A stretch of DNA of 64,000 nucleotides from Ustilago trichophora (taxonomy: Eukaryota > Basidiomycota > Ustilaginomycetes > Ustilaginales > Ustilaginaceae). Where the stretch lies: NCBI GenBank assembly GCA_900323505.1, contig OOIN01000011.1:744001-808000 (forward strand), given 5' to 3'. Below are positions 4,024 to 15,024 of this stretch, piece after piece. Under the pieces are notes generated by a model that had not been told where the DNA came from, ran no database searches, and was given only the letters and a program-made list of their open reading frames with translations. Both the position numbers and the translations under genes were made by a program. How positions within the stretch are numbered: the stretch's first letter is position 1; each line of letters begins with the position of its first letter.

Positions 4024-7000
4024 TCAGTAGATGGGGAAGTTGGGATCTTTGTCTTTGCTGTAGGCGCGGAGTCCGCCGATGAGGTCCGAGATCTGCACGG
4101 CGGTGATGGCCTGTGTTCTTCGCTTTGCTGCTTCGACTTGCGTCGCTTGCGCAGCCGGAGTCGCTGTGTCTGTTGATGCTTCTAGAGGATGTGAAGGCGT
4201 CTTAGGTATGGTTGTCGCCGCTTCTGCTTGCCTTTGACCTTCTTCCACCAGCTCCTGCTGGTGCTGTAATAGAGCTTTGACTGCAAGCTTTGAATCGTTT
4301 CCCTTCTTGCAGACCACCAACACCGATGAGGAAGGTGTCTTATGTTGAGCCTCGCTGATCTTGTCCCATGCCTCTCGTGGATCTTTGAGCAGTTGTTGGA
4401 TTGGAAGATTGAGCGAACCGTCCAGCTTGGTGATGCCGTATTCGACAGCGGGCCGCACATCTACAACCAATGCTTTGGCGTCCATAGATGCCACAGCCGT
4501 CCTTGGAAAACTGCCGTCACCAGAGGATGGGGCATTGAGACCACAGAACGATACATAGTCCTCTGTCTCGAGATCAGTGATCATCGGTTCCGACACCTGT
4601 GTGGGATCGCCGCAGGATCGGCAGGTGGCGATACGACGTGGACGAATCTTTACGCATCGGAACGGCATAGAAGTGAGTGGAGATACGAGGGTGAGCATGG
4701 GAGGAGTATCTTCGCCGATCCCGGCGAGAATCTTGATCGCTTCCAAAGCCTGCATAGTGCCAACGAGACCAGTGATGCCGCCGAGAACGCCGCCATCTTC
4801 GCAATTGGTCACTTCGTCAGGTCGAGGCGCTTTTGGGAAGAGGCAGCGGTAGCATGGACCCCGAACGATGCCACCCGAAGAGGCAGCGGAGGCCTTTGCT
4901 CCAGCGAACTCGGGCTTGATCCGCTTGTGCAGAACGACAAGCTGGCCATCATAGCCTTGAGCGGCGCCCGAAACCACCTGCACACCTTCGAGAACGGCTG
5001 CGTCGGAGATGAGGTATCTGGTGAGCGGGTTGTCTGTGCAGTCAAGCACAAGATCTTGATCGTGCATCATCTGACGGGCGTTCGAGGCGCTGATTGCTTC
5101 TGATATCGGTACCGCTGTGATGTAAGGATTGATCTGTTTTGCTGCTTGGGCAGCAGAAACAGCCTTATGCATGCCAACGGTGGCGTCGCTGTGCAGGATC
5201 TGCCTCGCCAGGTTCGAGGGCTCCACTACATCATGGTCTAGAATCGAGATCTGCCCAGCACCGGCTGCAGCTAGGTACTGAATAGCAGGGCAGCCAAGGC
5301 CACCTGCACCGACGACTAAGACTTTCGCTTTGCGAAGACGCAGTTGCCCAGGCAGGCCGAAATCTGGAAGGATCATCTGCCGACCGTATCGCGCGTATTC
5401 AACGAGAGCCATGGGCAGGGTGGTGGTACTTTTCGAGGACTCGCTCTGGACGATGCCATGGCCTGCTGATAGCTCTCGCTTTTGCACAGATTGTACTCCA
5501 GTAGCAGGCTCCTCGTCAGTCTGCTCGATAGGCCGTTTGAACGTTCCGGCCTCCGTACTTTGAGGCTTCGGCACTGATTTGGGCAGGGTCGCAGGGTCAA
5601 ATTCGCTTGCTGTTCCATCGAGAACATCACGAATGTGCTTGAGGGCGGTGAAGCTCATCAGTGTGTTGAGATCGCTCTGCTCCAATTCTTCTGGGCGGAC
5701 TTTGTCACTAGACGTAGTCCGGTCGAGCCAGCTCTGCTCTAGCACCTCGATGCAAAGCGAAAGGGCTGAACCGATGGCCTTGTTAGCGGTGGTCAGCTTC
5801 GAGGATTGTTCGGTGTGCTCTGAACTTGATCTCTGGGCGGTCTCTTCAGGATCGACAACGGGTAGCTTGGGTCTGGTCCTGCTCGAAGCTGCATGGCCTA
5901 CTGTGGATGGGGGAGCGGTGCTCCGCGGTCCAGTCTGATTGGTGAAGGCCTGATCGAAGCCGGAAGGGAAGCCGGACGTCTCGACTTTGTTGGATCCGTA
6001 AGCACCAGCTGCTGCTGCGACCGTCCTTGAAACGTTAGCGATGGCACTGTTGAGGGTTTGTGGTAGCTCAGATCGCTCATACCAGCCCTTGGCGAGGTCG
6101 CTGATGCCTTCAGGCAGGTACGCAGACGGATTGATGCCAAAAGCTCGGGGTCCATTGGCGTCATTATTGAAAGTAGGCTCTTGTGAAACGCCGAGTGGAT
6201 CTCCTGCTGCAGGGGGCGATTGCCAGCGCCGAGGTCCTGGTCTGCCGTTCTGCGGTGCAGCATTGGCTTCTTGTATGCGGCTCCATGGTGATGCTCTGCT
6301 GACCGGCCCTGATGGAGCCCTTCCGACCGTTGCAAATTTTTGGGCACCGTATCGCTGCGACGGGGAGGCAGGGCCTTGTCGAAGGGGCGAAGCACCGTGG
6401 GTCGGATCATCGATGGAGCGTACCGCAATACCCAAGAGGTCTCTGTTCTGCATGACTACCGCCACACCGGTGCTGGGTTGAAGTCCGTTGTCTCGCAAGA
6501 TGATGGCTTGCTTAATCAAGAGGTTCGGCTGTATCTGGGCTTCTGCAGGGTATCGGAGCAGACTTTGTAAGGCGGAGCTGTGGTCGCCTGCGAGGAGCTG
6601 GTTACGGATGCGAAGTAGCATGGCAATGCAGACATGGTCGATGAGTTCCAGTGAGTTTCCTGAGGCGAAGAGACCATCCCAGATGGCAAGTGCGTCGTCC
6701 AAAGCAAACTCGCGGGTGAAGATCATGCGGATCCATCTCAAGCAAAAGATTTGAGGTTCTATGCCGAGGCTCTCAAGGTGCTGAGCCAAGGCAGGATCAA
6801 TGTGGCGCAAAATTTCGAAGATGGCTTCGCACTTGGCAACGATGGGAAGCGGACGACGCGGAGTCTCCGCTGAATTGCGGGTGTCCGACGCTTGTTTGGC
6901 AGAGATGGATGGAGAAGTTGAAGGTGTGGGGACAGCATCTCGGCTGGGACTGTCGCGCCAAGCATACCAGCTTTTTGCGCTCTGCATCAGAATGCAGAAG

Positions 7001-7917
7001 AGTGTGTAGACATCGTGCTCGATAAAGACGTCGGCAAGCGCGTGCTGGAAGGGGGCATCGGCGGAAGTCTGTGTGGAAGCTCGGGAAGGAGCACTACAGG
7101 AGAGGTCTCGAGCATCAACAGCGCCATCGCTGCGTACTTTCCAGAGAACAGCAGCAAGCTCGTGCATGCCTTGTCTGTAGCCGACATCGTCATTCTCGAG
7201 GATCCACAGGAAGAGAATGTTGGTTAAGGATTGTTGGACGTTGGTAAGGCGGAATAGGTTGATATCAGGAAACGTCCTTTCTACATCTTGCAAGATGACT
7301 CTTCTGGTTTCAAGAGTAGAGTAATAAGCCTTCCAAGGGTTGGAGTCGTCTAGGCTGAGCGGATTGTTGACAGAGAGGTCGTTGACGACAGCCGGCCTTA
7401 CTGGAGCTGATCGAGTCTGTGGGCTTTGTCGCGAGGCGGTAGCGTTGGTTGTTGAGTCTAGGGTCGTATGTGTGCCGTCAAAGCCGACTTCGGGGGGATA
7501 GTTGCCGTCTGGAGCGCGCAATAGGCGACAGCGCAACTCATTGTATGCTTCTCTGTCGCGCTCCAGGACAGGAGACCATGAGGAAGGGATGCTCGAAATA
7601 TGCTCGGTGAGAAAGAGCTTCCACTGGATCCATCGGAGCGATGCGCTATCGTCTTTGGCTGTCCTGCCCTCGATGCCACGAATTTTGAGTGCTTCGATCG
7701 GCGAGGAGGTGGTACCTCTCAAGAGTGACATCCATTTCGAGCTGTGACGGTGAGGTAGAAGCCGAAAGTGTCAGTCTTGTGAGCGAGTTTCCTGATGTTG
7801 GTTTGTGACGACTCACCTCAAAGATACATCAGCAGCCTTGATGTTGCTTGGCGTGGGAGCCATATGACCCTGTCGTGTCGGAGGAACTGGTGAAGTGACA
7901 GCTAAAGGATCGCTCAT
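4024..7917 (-). CDS. uba4: Fusion protein: TBC (Rab GTPase-activating) domain plus Uba4/MOCS3 E1-sulfurtransferase
   Basis: Proposed gene: complement(join(4024..7741,7817..7917)), 1272 aa. Exon 1 (ATG at 7917) joins through a 75-nt GTGAGT...CAG intron to a single open exon. The N-terminal half is a TBC domain of TBC1D5 type, with the arginine-finger motif ILQDVER and the glutamine-finger motif GYRQGM. A low-complexity linker follows. From the MALVEYARYGRQM segment (codon at 5412) a complete Uba4 follows: nucleotide-binding GAGGLGCP, the arginine motif NLARQ, zinc cysteines CYRC and CRSC, the E1 catalytic cysteine in NCEDGG, and a C-terminal rhodanese domain with its cysteine in VVCKKGND. Uba4 adenylates and thiolates Urm1 for tRNA U34 thiolation and protein urmylation, whereas TBC1D5-type proteins act on Rab7/retromer traffic. 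No stop separates the halves. Separate transcripts using the ATG at 5412 remain possible. Confidence 0.85.
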
Positions 7918-14050: not shown

Positions 14051-14058
14051 TATATAAT
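14051..14058 (+). promoter_or_regulatory. TATA box of the U2 snRNA gene
   Basis: TATATAAT lies about 35-40 bp upstream of the inferred U2 5' end (about 14090), a spacing suited to RNA polymerase II initiation. The role is inferred from position only. Confidence 0.6.
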
Positions 14059-14091
14059 CTAGAGCCTGTCCCGCATCCCCCACTTGTCACC

Positions 14092-14406
14092 TCACTCTTC
14101 TGGCCTATTGTAAGTCTGCCCCCAATGGTTGCGGCGCCTCGCTCGCACTGCCTCGTCAACACCTTGAGCTCGCAAGTACTAACCGCATCCGCATTCTCTT
14201 TGTTTCTCTTCTTTTGCGATTCGACTCGTACAGGGCTTAGATCATGTGTAGTATCTGTTCTAAATAGATTGACATCTATTACTTCTCGCTCCGGCGAGAA
14301 TTATATTGTCATACACTTTTTCCTTGCGGGAGATGACCGTTCAGGTGCTTGCACCTCGGCATCTCGAGGATGTCCTTGGCCCTACACTTCCGCCTTGAGA
14401 CGTCCG
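14092..14406 (+). ncRNA. U2: U2 spliceosomal snRNA, interrupted by an intron
   Basis: Exon 1 is about 14092-14109 and exon 2 about 14234-14406, giving about 191 nt when spliced, close to the 187-188 nt of human U2. Joining them restores stem-loop I (GGCC-TATT-GGCT) and the invariant run GGCTTAGATC...GTGTAGTATCTGTTCT, including the branch-site-pairing GTAGTA at 14248-14253. All later U2 helices can be folded by eye: stem IIa 14263-14280 (7 bp), stem IIb 14283-14300 (7 bp), stem III 14330-14365 (GAGATG/CATCTC enclosing AGGTGC/GCACCT) and stem IV 14368-14405 (GGATGTC/GACGTCC). An Sm-like T5 tract (ACTTTTTCC, about 14315-14323) is degenerate. U2 pairs with the intron branch site during splicing. 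The exact 5' and 3' ends are uncertain by a few bases. Confidence 0.88.
14110..14233 (+). other. Spliceosomal (GT-AG) intron inside U2 snRNA
   Basis: This 124-nt insertion separates nucleotides equivalent to human U2 positions 18 and 19. It begins GTAAGT, ends TACAG and contains a perfect TACTAAC branch sequence at 14177-14183, followed by a pyrimidine-rich tract. These are all mRNA-intron hallmarks. The U2 stem-loop I can form only after its removal. Confidence 0.85.
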
Positions 14407-14407
14407 C

Positions 14408-15024
14408 CGTCCTCTTTTTTGCATGTGTTTGCTTACGTAATGCTGAGTCATTAGCCCTTCTCAACTGGTGCGAATTCGATACTCCCTTTTTCCGTGAATT
14501 GGGCTTGGAAAAAAAATGCCCGTGTTTAAAAATTCTGAAAAAGAAGGACATGAAAACCATTCCCAAAAGCGATGGCCCCACCGAGACCTATGGCTGAACC
14601 CACAACACACAGTTTATATCATATGCAGCCAATTACATACACGGCACTGCAGCGCAAACAATCCATAACAAGCTCAGCACGATCAACACTTGATCCGATC
14701 ATACGGACGTCGCTACCCTCAAGCCATGTTGCTTTCTGCGAGGCAAAGTCAGAGAGTGGAGGAGAAGCGTCTACTCTCGGCGAATTATGGATCGAGGAAT
14801 CGGGCGCTTCTCGAAAGCAACACTCAGGACGCGCTTTAACCAAAAAGTCGCGTCGAGCACATTCACACTTGTGACTGTTTGCATTCGCGCAGCAAATCAC
14901 AGTCTACCAAAAGTGCAAAGAGAGGCCCCTTCCGCAGCTCCTTCTCCTCCATCATCACCACCATCCGCACCGCCACCGTACACTGACTCGCCGAGGACCA
15001 GAAAGAAGGCACACGATAGCGAGC
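14408..15024. promoter_or_regulatory. Promoter/leader of pif1 and 3' flank of U2
   Basis: The stretch runs from the U2 3' end to the pif1 ATG. It contains A/T-rich runs near 14508-14545 and several short frames without family signature. An undetected 5' pif1 exon cannot be excluded. Confidence 0.4.

Follow-up and report, generated by a model that had tools for sequence, protein, structure and literature searches.

Predicted spliceosomal introns split both U2 and both U4 snRNA genes found in a smut genome assembly

Rhodotorula hasegawae, a basidiomycete, holds the closest described counterparts of the locus analysed here. Genes for noncoding RNAs are sometimes interrupted by spliceosomal introns (PMC2586383). 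The same source cites an mRNA-type intron in U2 snRNA of R. hasegawae (Takahashi et al. 1993, Mol Cell Biol 13:5613), and a second one cites introns in fungal U6 snRNA (PMC5832005, 2017). As far as these accounts go, the gene described below is alike in being a basidiomycete U2 gene with an mRNA-type intron and different in that, in this smut relative, both U2 copies found are interrupted and U4 is interrupted too; the fungal U6 introns likewise lie in a spliceosomal RNA gene, whereas here U6 is uninterrupted and the introns fall in U2 and U4. U3 introns, to the extent that the cited literature describes them, resemble the present case in being spliceosomal, in interrupting the 5' stem-loop of a small structured RNA and in being broadly distributed in Basidiomycota; U3, however, lies outside the spliceosome, so that no self-dependence arises, unlike for U2 and U4 here. 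Work of Takahashi and colleagues from 1996 reportedly described interrupted U1 and U5 genes in R. hasegawae, which would likewise make several snRNAs interrupted in one fungus, although U4 is not known to be among them. A survey of titles and abstract openings in the open-access literature returned no report of a smut U2 intron or of any U4 intron. An intron in U2 alone is thus known from another basidiomycete, and it is the predicted splitting of both U2 and U4 in one genome, in every copy found, that appears to be new.

The stretch of DNA analysed (64,000 bases, hereafter the window) contains a U2 snRNA gene that we read, with high confidence, as one of two found in the assembly whose stem-loop I is split by a predicted 124-nt GT-AG intron, likely removed by the major spliceosome. 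The interrupting stretch has the form GTAAGT...TACTAAC...TACAG (14110–14233, plus strand), and the gene is laid out as follows.

14051–14058, plus strand: TATA-like box TATATAAT, read from the sequence, 59 nt upstream of GTAAGT
14088–14109, plus strand: U2 exon 1, conserved core CACCTCACTCTTCTGGCCTATT, placed by sequence, copy comparison and pairing; 5' end approximate
14110–14233, plus strand: predicted spliceosomal intron, 124 nt, GTAAGT...TACAG, placed by sequence, copy comparison and motif counts
14110–14115, plus strand: 5' splice site GTAAGT, read from the sequence
14177–14183, plus strand: predicted branch site TACTAAC, its branch A predicted at 14182, 51 nt before the intron ends
14229–14233, plus strand: 3' splice site TACAG, read from the sequence
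14234–14406, plus strand: U2 exon 2, beginning GGCTTAGATC, from the stem-loop I 3' strand through stem-loop IV; 3' end approximate
14248–14253, plus strand: branch-site recognition sequence GTAGTA, from sequence reading and the Rfam alignment

Exon 1 holds the U6-pairing strand CTCTTCTG and the 5' strand of stem-loop I (GGCC), and the branch-recognition sequence GUAGUA lies within the conserved U2 core GTAGTATCTGTTCT, common to both copies. An earlier note on this DNA had described a U2 core directly after TACAG, a separated 5' part running straight into GTAAGT and a perfect TACTAAC in between. All three can be read in the sequence as described: the core starts at 14234, the 5' part ends in GGCCTATT at 14109, the interval is the 124 nt claimed, and the branch site lies at 14177–14183. 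The spliced length, put there at about 191 nt, comes to 195 nt with the ends used here (14088–14109 plus 173 nt). Going by how often each motif occurs in the window itself, GTAAGT at the upstream junction would coincide by chance with CTRAC in an 85-nt zone ahead of the downstream junction and with YAG at the latter at a joint frequency of ~4.7e-7, and the same arrangement recurs in the second copy.

That second copy was found by searching the assembly (38,820,965 bases in 45 contigs), with the U2 model scored on 46 of 375 first-look candidates; these genome searches cover assembled sequence and the best first-look candidates. The model matched two places, the window locus and C11:154562–154768, and the C11 gene is interrupted at the same position. 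A U2 core pattern allowing up to three mismatches returned the same two loci and no third, as did a pattern spanning stem-loop I and the core (up to three mismatches), which each locus matched with two mismatches at the junction. Since an intact U2 would score better on this last pattern and none appeared, we saw no uninterrupted copy in the assembly, whether by the U2 model or by the junction and core patterns. The search for a second, intact U2 that the earlier note had proposed has therefore yielded two matches out of two interrupted at one and the same site.

The window and the C11 locus are diverged duplicates, 57,147 of the 64,000 window bases aligning at a mean identity of 81.8%. As a separate observation, the window and C11:105277–169034 are ~82% identical and collinear along the compared stretch, and the assembly resembles two subgenomes; U2, U4 and U6 have two matches apiece. 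The assembly would thus appear to be that of a hybrid, or to contain two subgenomes. Among the best 120 of 621 matches, the best named relatives of the DnaJ-X gene adjoining U2 are from Sporisorium reilianum, Ustilago loliicola, Ustilago sp. UG-2017b and Kalmanozyma, which places the source among the smuts or their close yeast relatives. No related locus was returned by one pattern in bacterial and archaeal and one in viral contig collections, as expected there. Elsewhere in the window (4024–7731, minus strand), a single 1,235-aa frame joins a RabGAP-TBC domain to a ThiF plus rhodanese part, and its C11 counterpart is 90% identical across 1,235 aa within one stop-free frame; a gene fusion is possible.

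Comparison of the two U2 copies, which share one ancestor so that their agreement amounts to one comparison, revealed conservation confined to the exons. Exon 1 is identical at 20 of 20 positions (23/25 when taken over 25 nt) and exon 2 at 169 of 173, against 92 of 122 in the intron (plus two gap columns), and the flanks have also diverged (upstream 151/191 with 18 gaps, downstream 113/178 with 44 gaps). The difference between exons and intron gave p = 7e-11 (Fisher test; 0.007 for exon 1 alone), suggesting that the exons are under constraint while the intron drifts. Within the drifting intron, GTAAGT, CTAAC and TACAG are retained in both copies, in the order and spacing that a major-spliceosome intron requires, with CTAAC 51 nt before the intron end in the window and 49 nt before it in C11; the full TACTAAC occurs in the window copy only, the C11 copy reading CTCTAAC. 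The C11 gene also has a TATA-like box, 60 nt before its 5' splice site.

This pattern bears on the possibility that both U2 loci are decayed and unexpressed, with an intact U2 residing in unassembled or unscored sequence. An assembly of 45 contigs may indeed be incomplete, but unexpressed copies should drift throughout, whereas here 20/20 and 169/173 exon positions are kept as intron and flanks diverge. The splice signals are retained as well, the core patterns with up to three mismatches give no third place, and the U4 genes described below repeat the pattern, again with no intact copy seen among the model matches. We therefore regard this account as improbable.

If the predicted intron is removed, the two exons should fit together structurally. 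Using U6 from the same genome and allowing G-U pairs, we counted pairs in a locked register and found 12 of 12 in both spliced copies (eight with U6 in helix II and four in stem-loop I), compared with three and two of 12 in the unspliced sequences; 12 such pairs were reached at 13 of 287,730 background positions, these genes themselves being counted in. The earlier claim that splicing restores stem-loop I is borne out by these counts. Its companion claim, that all four U2 stems fold, stands in part: in free-energy folds of both copies a stem-loop I-like hairpin and stem-loops IIb, III and IV formed, while stem-loop IIa was missing from the minimum-energy folds of both spliced RNAs, its pairs being placed in the Rfam alignment. 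Tests without a fixed register were weaker. Among 701 upstream positions, a minimal stem-loop fold put exon 1 at rank 9 in one copy and 6 in the other. Free pairing with U6 was also stronger for 32 nt at the end of the intron (-15.4 and -12.6 kcal/mol) than for 15 nt of exon 1 (-11.2 kcal/mol).

The covariance-model results allow a different view of the 5' end. Of 4,227 Rfam families scanned, U2 alone reached its gathering score in the window, and the match (RF00004) covers 14204–14412 of the unspliced sequence with 106.4 bits and E 1.8e-20; the unspliced C11 copy scores 101.7 bits. The unspliced sequence by itself thus clears the gathering cut-off of 46 in both copies, which counts against our preferred explanation. 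U2 might accordingly be made without splicing, from a start near 14204 inside the putative intron, with the pyrimidine tract as its 5' end: the Rfam alignment of the unspliced sequence begins at 14204 and spans the complete model, placing the model 5' end on this tract, TTCTCTTCT is similar to the start of U2, the end of the intron can pair with U6 at the free-register energies given above, and a TATAA occurs in the C11 intron 29 nt ahead of exon 2. The tract, however, is not conserved in C11, the 110 nt preceding exon 2 in the window copy lack a TATA box, stem-loop I fails to form (three and two of 12 locked pairs), and the invariance of the upstream exon 1 is left unexplained, all of which makes this alternative very improbable. 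The unspliced sequence has 17 nt where the Rfam model has six, and the spliced form has six (CUAUUG, by eye). A practical warning follows, as covariance models run on genomic sequence are likely to give wrong 5' ends at snRNA genes split by introns.

Removal by a non-spliceosomal route, that is group I or II self-splicing or tRNA-type splicing, would avoid self-dependence and deserves hardly any credence, given that no group I or II intron family was matched in the window (4,227 families, gathering scores) and that the 124 nt carry a complete spliceosomal signal set in GTAAGT, TACTAAC and TACAG. Our reading of an mRNA-type intron in U2, as the earlier note had also proposed, is supported by the two-copy search, by the exon-limited conservation and by the restored stem-loop I and helix II. 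With regard to where such introns came from, an introner origin was considered and rejected within the set compared (307,718 bases in 63 overlapping records): the U2 and U4 introns do not match each other, and outside their own loci and duplicates there was one 15-nt match only.

Two further features of the U2 sequence were recorded. At window position 14245, just 5' of the branch-recognition sequence, both copies read GATCATGTGTAGTA as against GAUCAAGUGUAGUA in the Rfam consensus. The Sm-binding site consensus is ATTTTTGR; the Sm-like site of U2 is the unusual ACTTTTTCC (14314–14322, both copies), which differs from it and counts against our preferred explanation, and the Sm-like site in U4 reads AATTTTTGG, as against ACTTTTTCC in U2.

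The same design, missed by the earlier reading, seems on comparison of its copies to extend to U4. The U4 model (RF00015), scored on 41 of 1,967 first-look candidates of the assembly, matched two loci, L009 on C4 with 65.0 bits and L010 on C8 with 60.1 bits (cut-off 46), and no intact U4 was seen among the model matches from these 41 candidates. Both genes carry a GTAAGT...ACAG stretch that cuts off the U6-pairing strand.

L009, 1647–1882, minus strand of the locus: U4 predicted intron on C4, 236 nt
L010, 1647–1884, minus strand of the locus: U4 predicted intron on C8, 238 nt

Upstream of the stretch, the 16-nt CTCCTCATCCATCTTC is identical in both copies (20/22 over 22 nt) and is followed by GTAAGT, with CATCCATCTTC immediately preceding the splice site; after the ACAG at the intron end come TGAGGCAGG and the remainder of U4, of which the first 105 nt are identical between the copies (105/105). 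The introns agree at 199 of 234 positions with six gap columns and the flanks at 176 of 199 (5', eight gaps) and 160 of 199 (3', two gaps), so that exons and intron again differ in conservation (Fisher p = 2e-8). Candidate branch sites reading CTGAC lie 99 and 100 nt before the intron ends, and a second candidate pair of CTGAC, 220 and 222 nt from those ends, is close to the 5' splice site.

Splicing, as modelled on these sequences, would restore the U6-pairing strand of U4. In the locked U4/U6 register the spliced form makes 16 Watson-Crick pairs and one G-U pair of 19, compared with 9+1 and 8+1 unspliced, and the duplex energy is -26.0 kcal/mol spliced versus -17.1 and -16.5 kcal/mol unspliced. 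In each copy, none of the other 1,498 upstream positions does as well in locked U6 pairing as the 12-mer directly before GTAAGT (39 of 287,784 background 12-mers were equal or better), and none of 1,000 shuffles of the U4 exon reached its duplex energy. In free register, two other upstream 13-mers per copy equal or beat the exon, which ranks 3 of 701 upstream positions by free duplex energy and 2 of the 34 that are followed by GT.

Both U6 genes are uninterrupted, the whole model being matched without a large insertion (45.4 and 44.4 bits, cut-off 44). The stem II strand of U6 is unusual, GCCCCAGCAGATGGATGG, its complement CATCCATCT is present in U4 exon 1, and the low U6 scores fit this diverged strand. 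In the 3' hairpin of the two U6 loci (L007 and L008, from position 1501 in each), a compensatory change between copies is visible by eye, GCTTTC-TTCG-GAAAGC versus GCCTTC-TTCG-GAAGGC. U1 and U5 gave no match in the assembly with the Rfam models at E 0.001, a setting at which the control genomes likewise had none. At E 10, U1 again found nothing in the assembly and matched in 9 of 14 control genomes, none over the cut-off, while U5 gave one match in the assembly and matched in 2 of 14 controls, none over the cut-off; the assembly match (L014, 24.7 bits, cut-off 40) was rejected, since by eye it lies within apparent coding sequence. A U5 loop-plus-Sm pattern had no match in the assembly, and a U1 two-loop pattern hit three places, of which those on C10 and C11 are identical and the third lies on C39. 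The U5 loop pattern with three mismatches returned 62 places, fewer than the 108 of the reversed control; intercomparison of 30 loci drawn from these 62 places yielded two pairs, overlapping neighbour stretches on C4 and two loci that are 77% identical but lack a U5-like loop, and both pairs were rejected as U5. The unfound U1 and U5 genes may be diverged, interrupted inside a conserved stretch, or lost at the first-look filter.

Taken together, the predicted introns would place U2 in a loop of its own. Transcription, probably by RNA polymerase II, would proceed from the TATA box at 14051 across both U2 exons, and existing spliceosomes, already containing U2, would recognise GTAAGT, TACTAAC and TACAG of the U2 precursor. 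Once the exons are joined, the 5' strand that pairs with U6 would lie, together with the first half of stem-loop I, beside the branch-recognition region; the intron TACTAAC can itself pair, with the branch A bulged, with GTAGTA in exon 2 of the same gene. Mature U2 would in this way help to produce further U2, and, as the U4 genes share the split design with a longer intron, U4 production would likewise depend on U4. From the predicted start of transcription to the self-dependent feedback, these steps are what we infer for U2 and U4.

Should there be no intact copy, neither U2 nor U4 can be produced unless its own mature form is already present. We judge the odds to be even that no spliceosome can be made from this genome alone, every U2 and U4 gene needing spliceosomes that contain U2 and U4 and that are handed on between cells, renewing themselves, and that U1 and U5 may also be split. 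U4 left unspliced should hold U6 poorly, which offers a direct molecular test of the U4 case. The splitting of U2 and U4 in one genome raises the question of how evolution could lead into such a loop, and whether self-dependence sets snRNA levels through positive feedback and spores carry inherited snRNPs.
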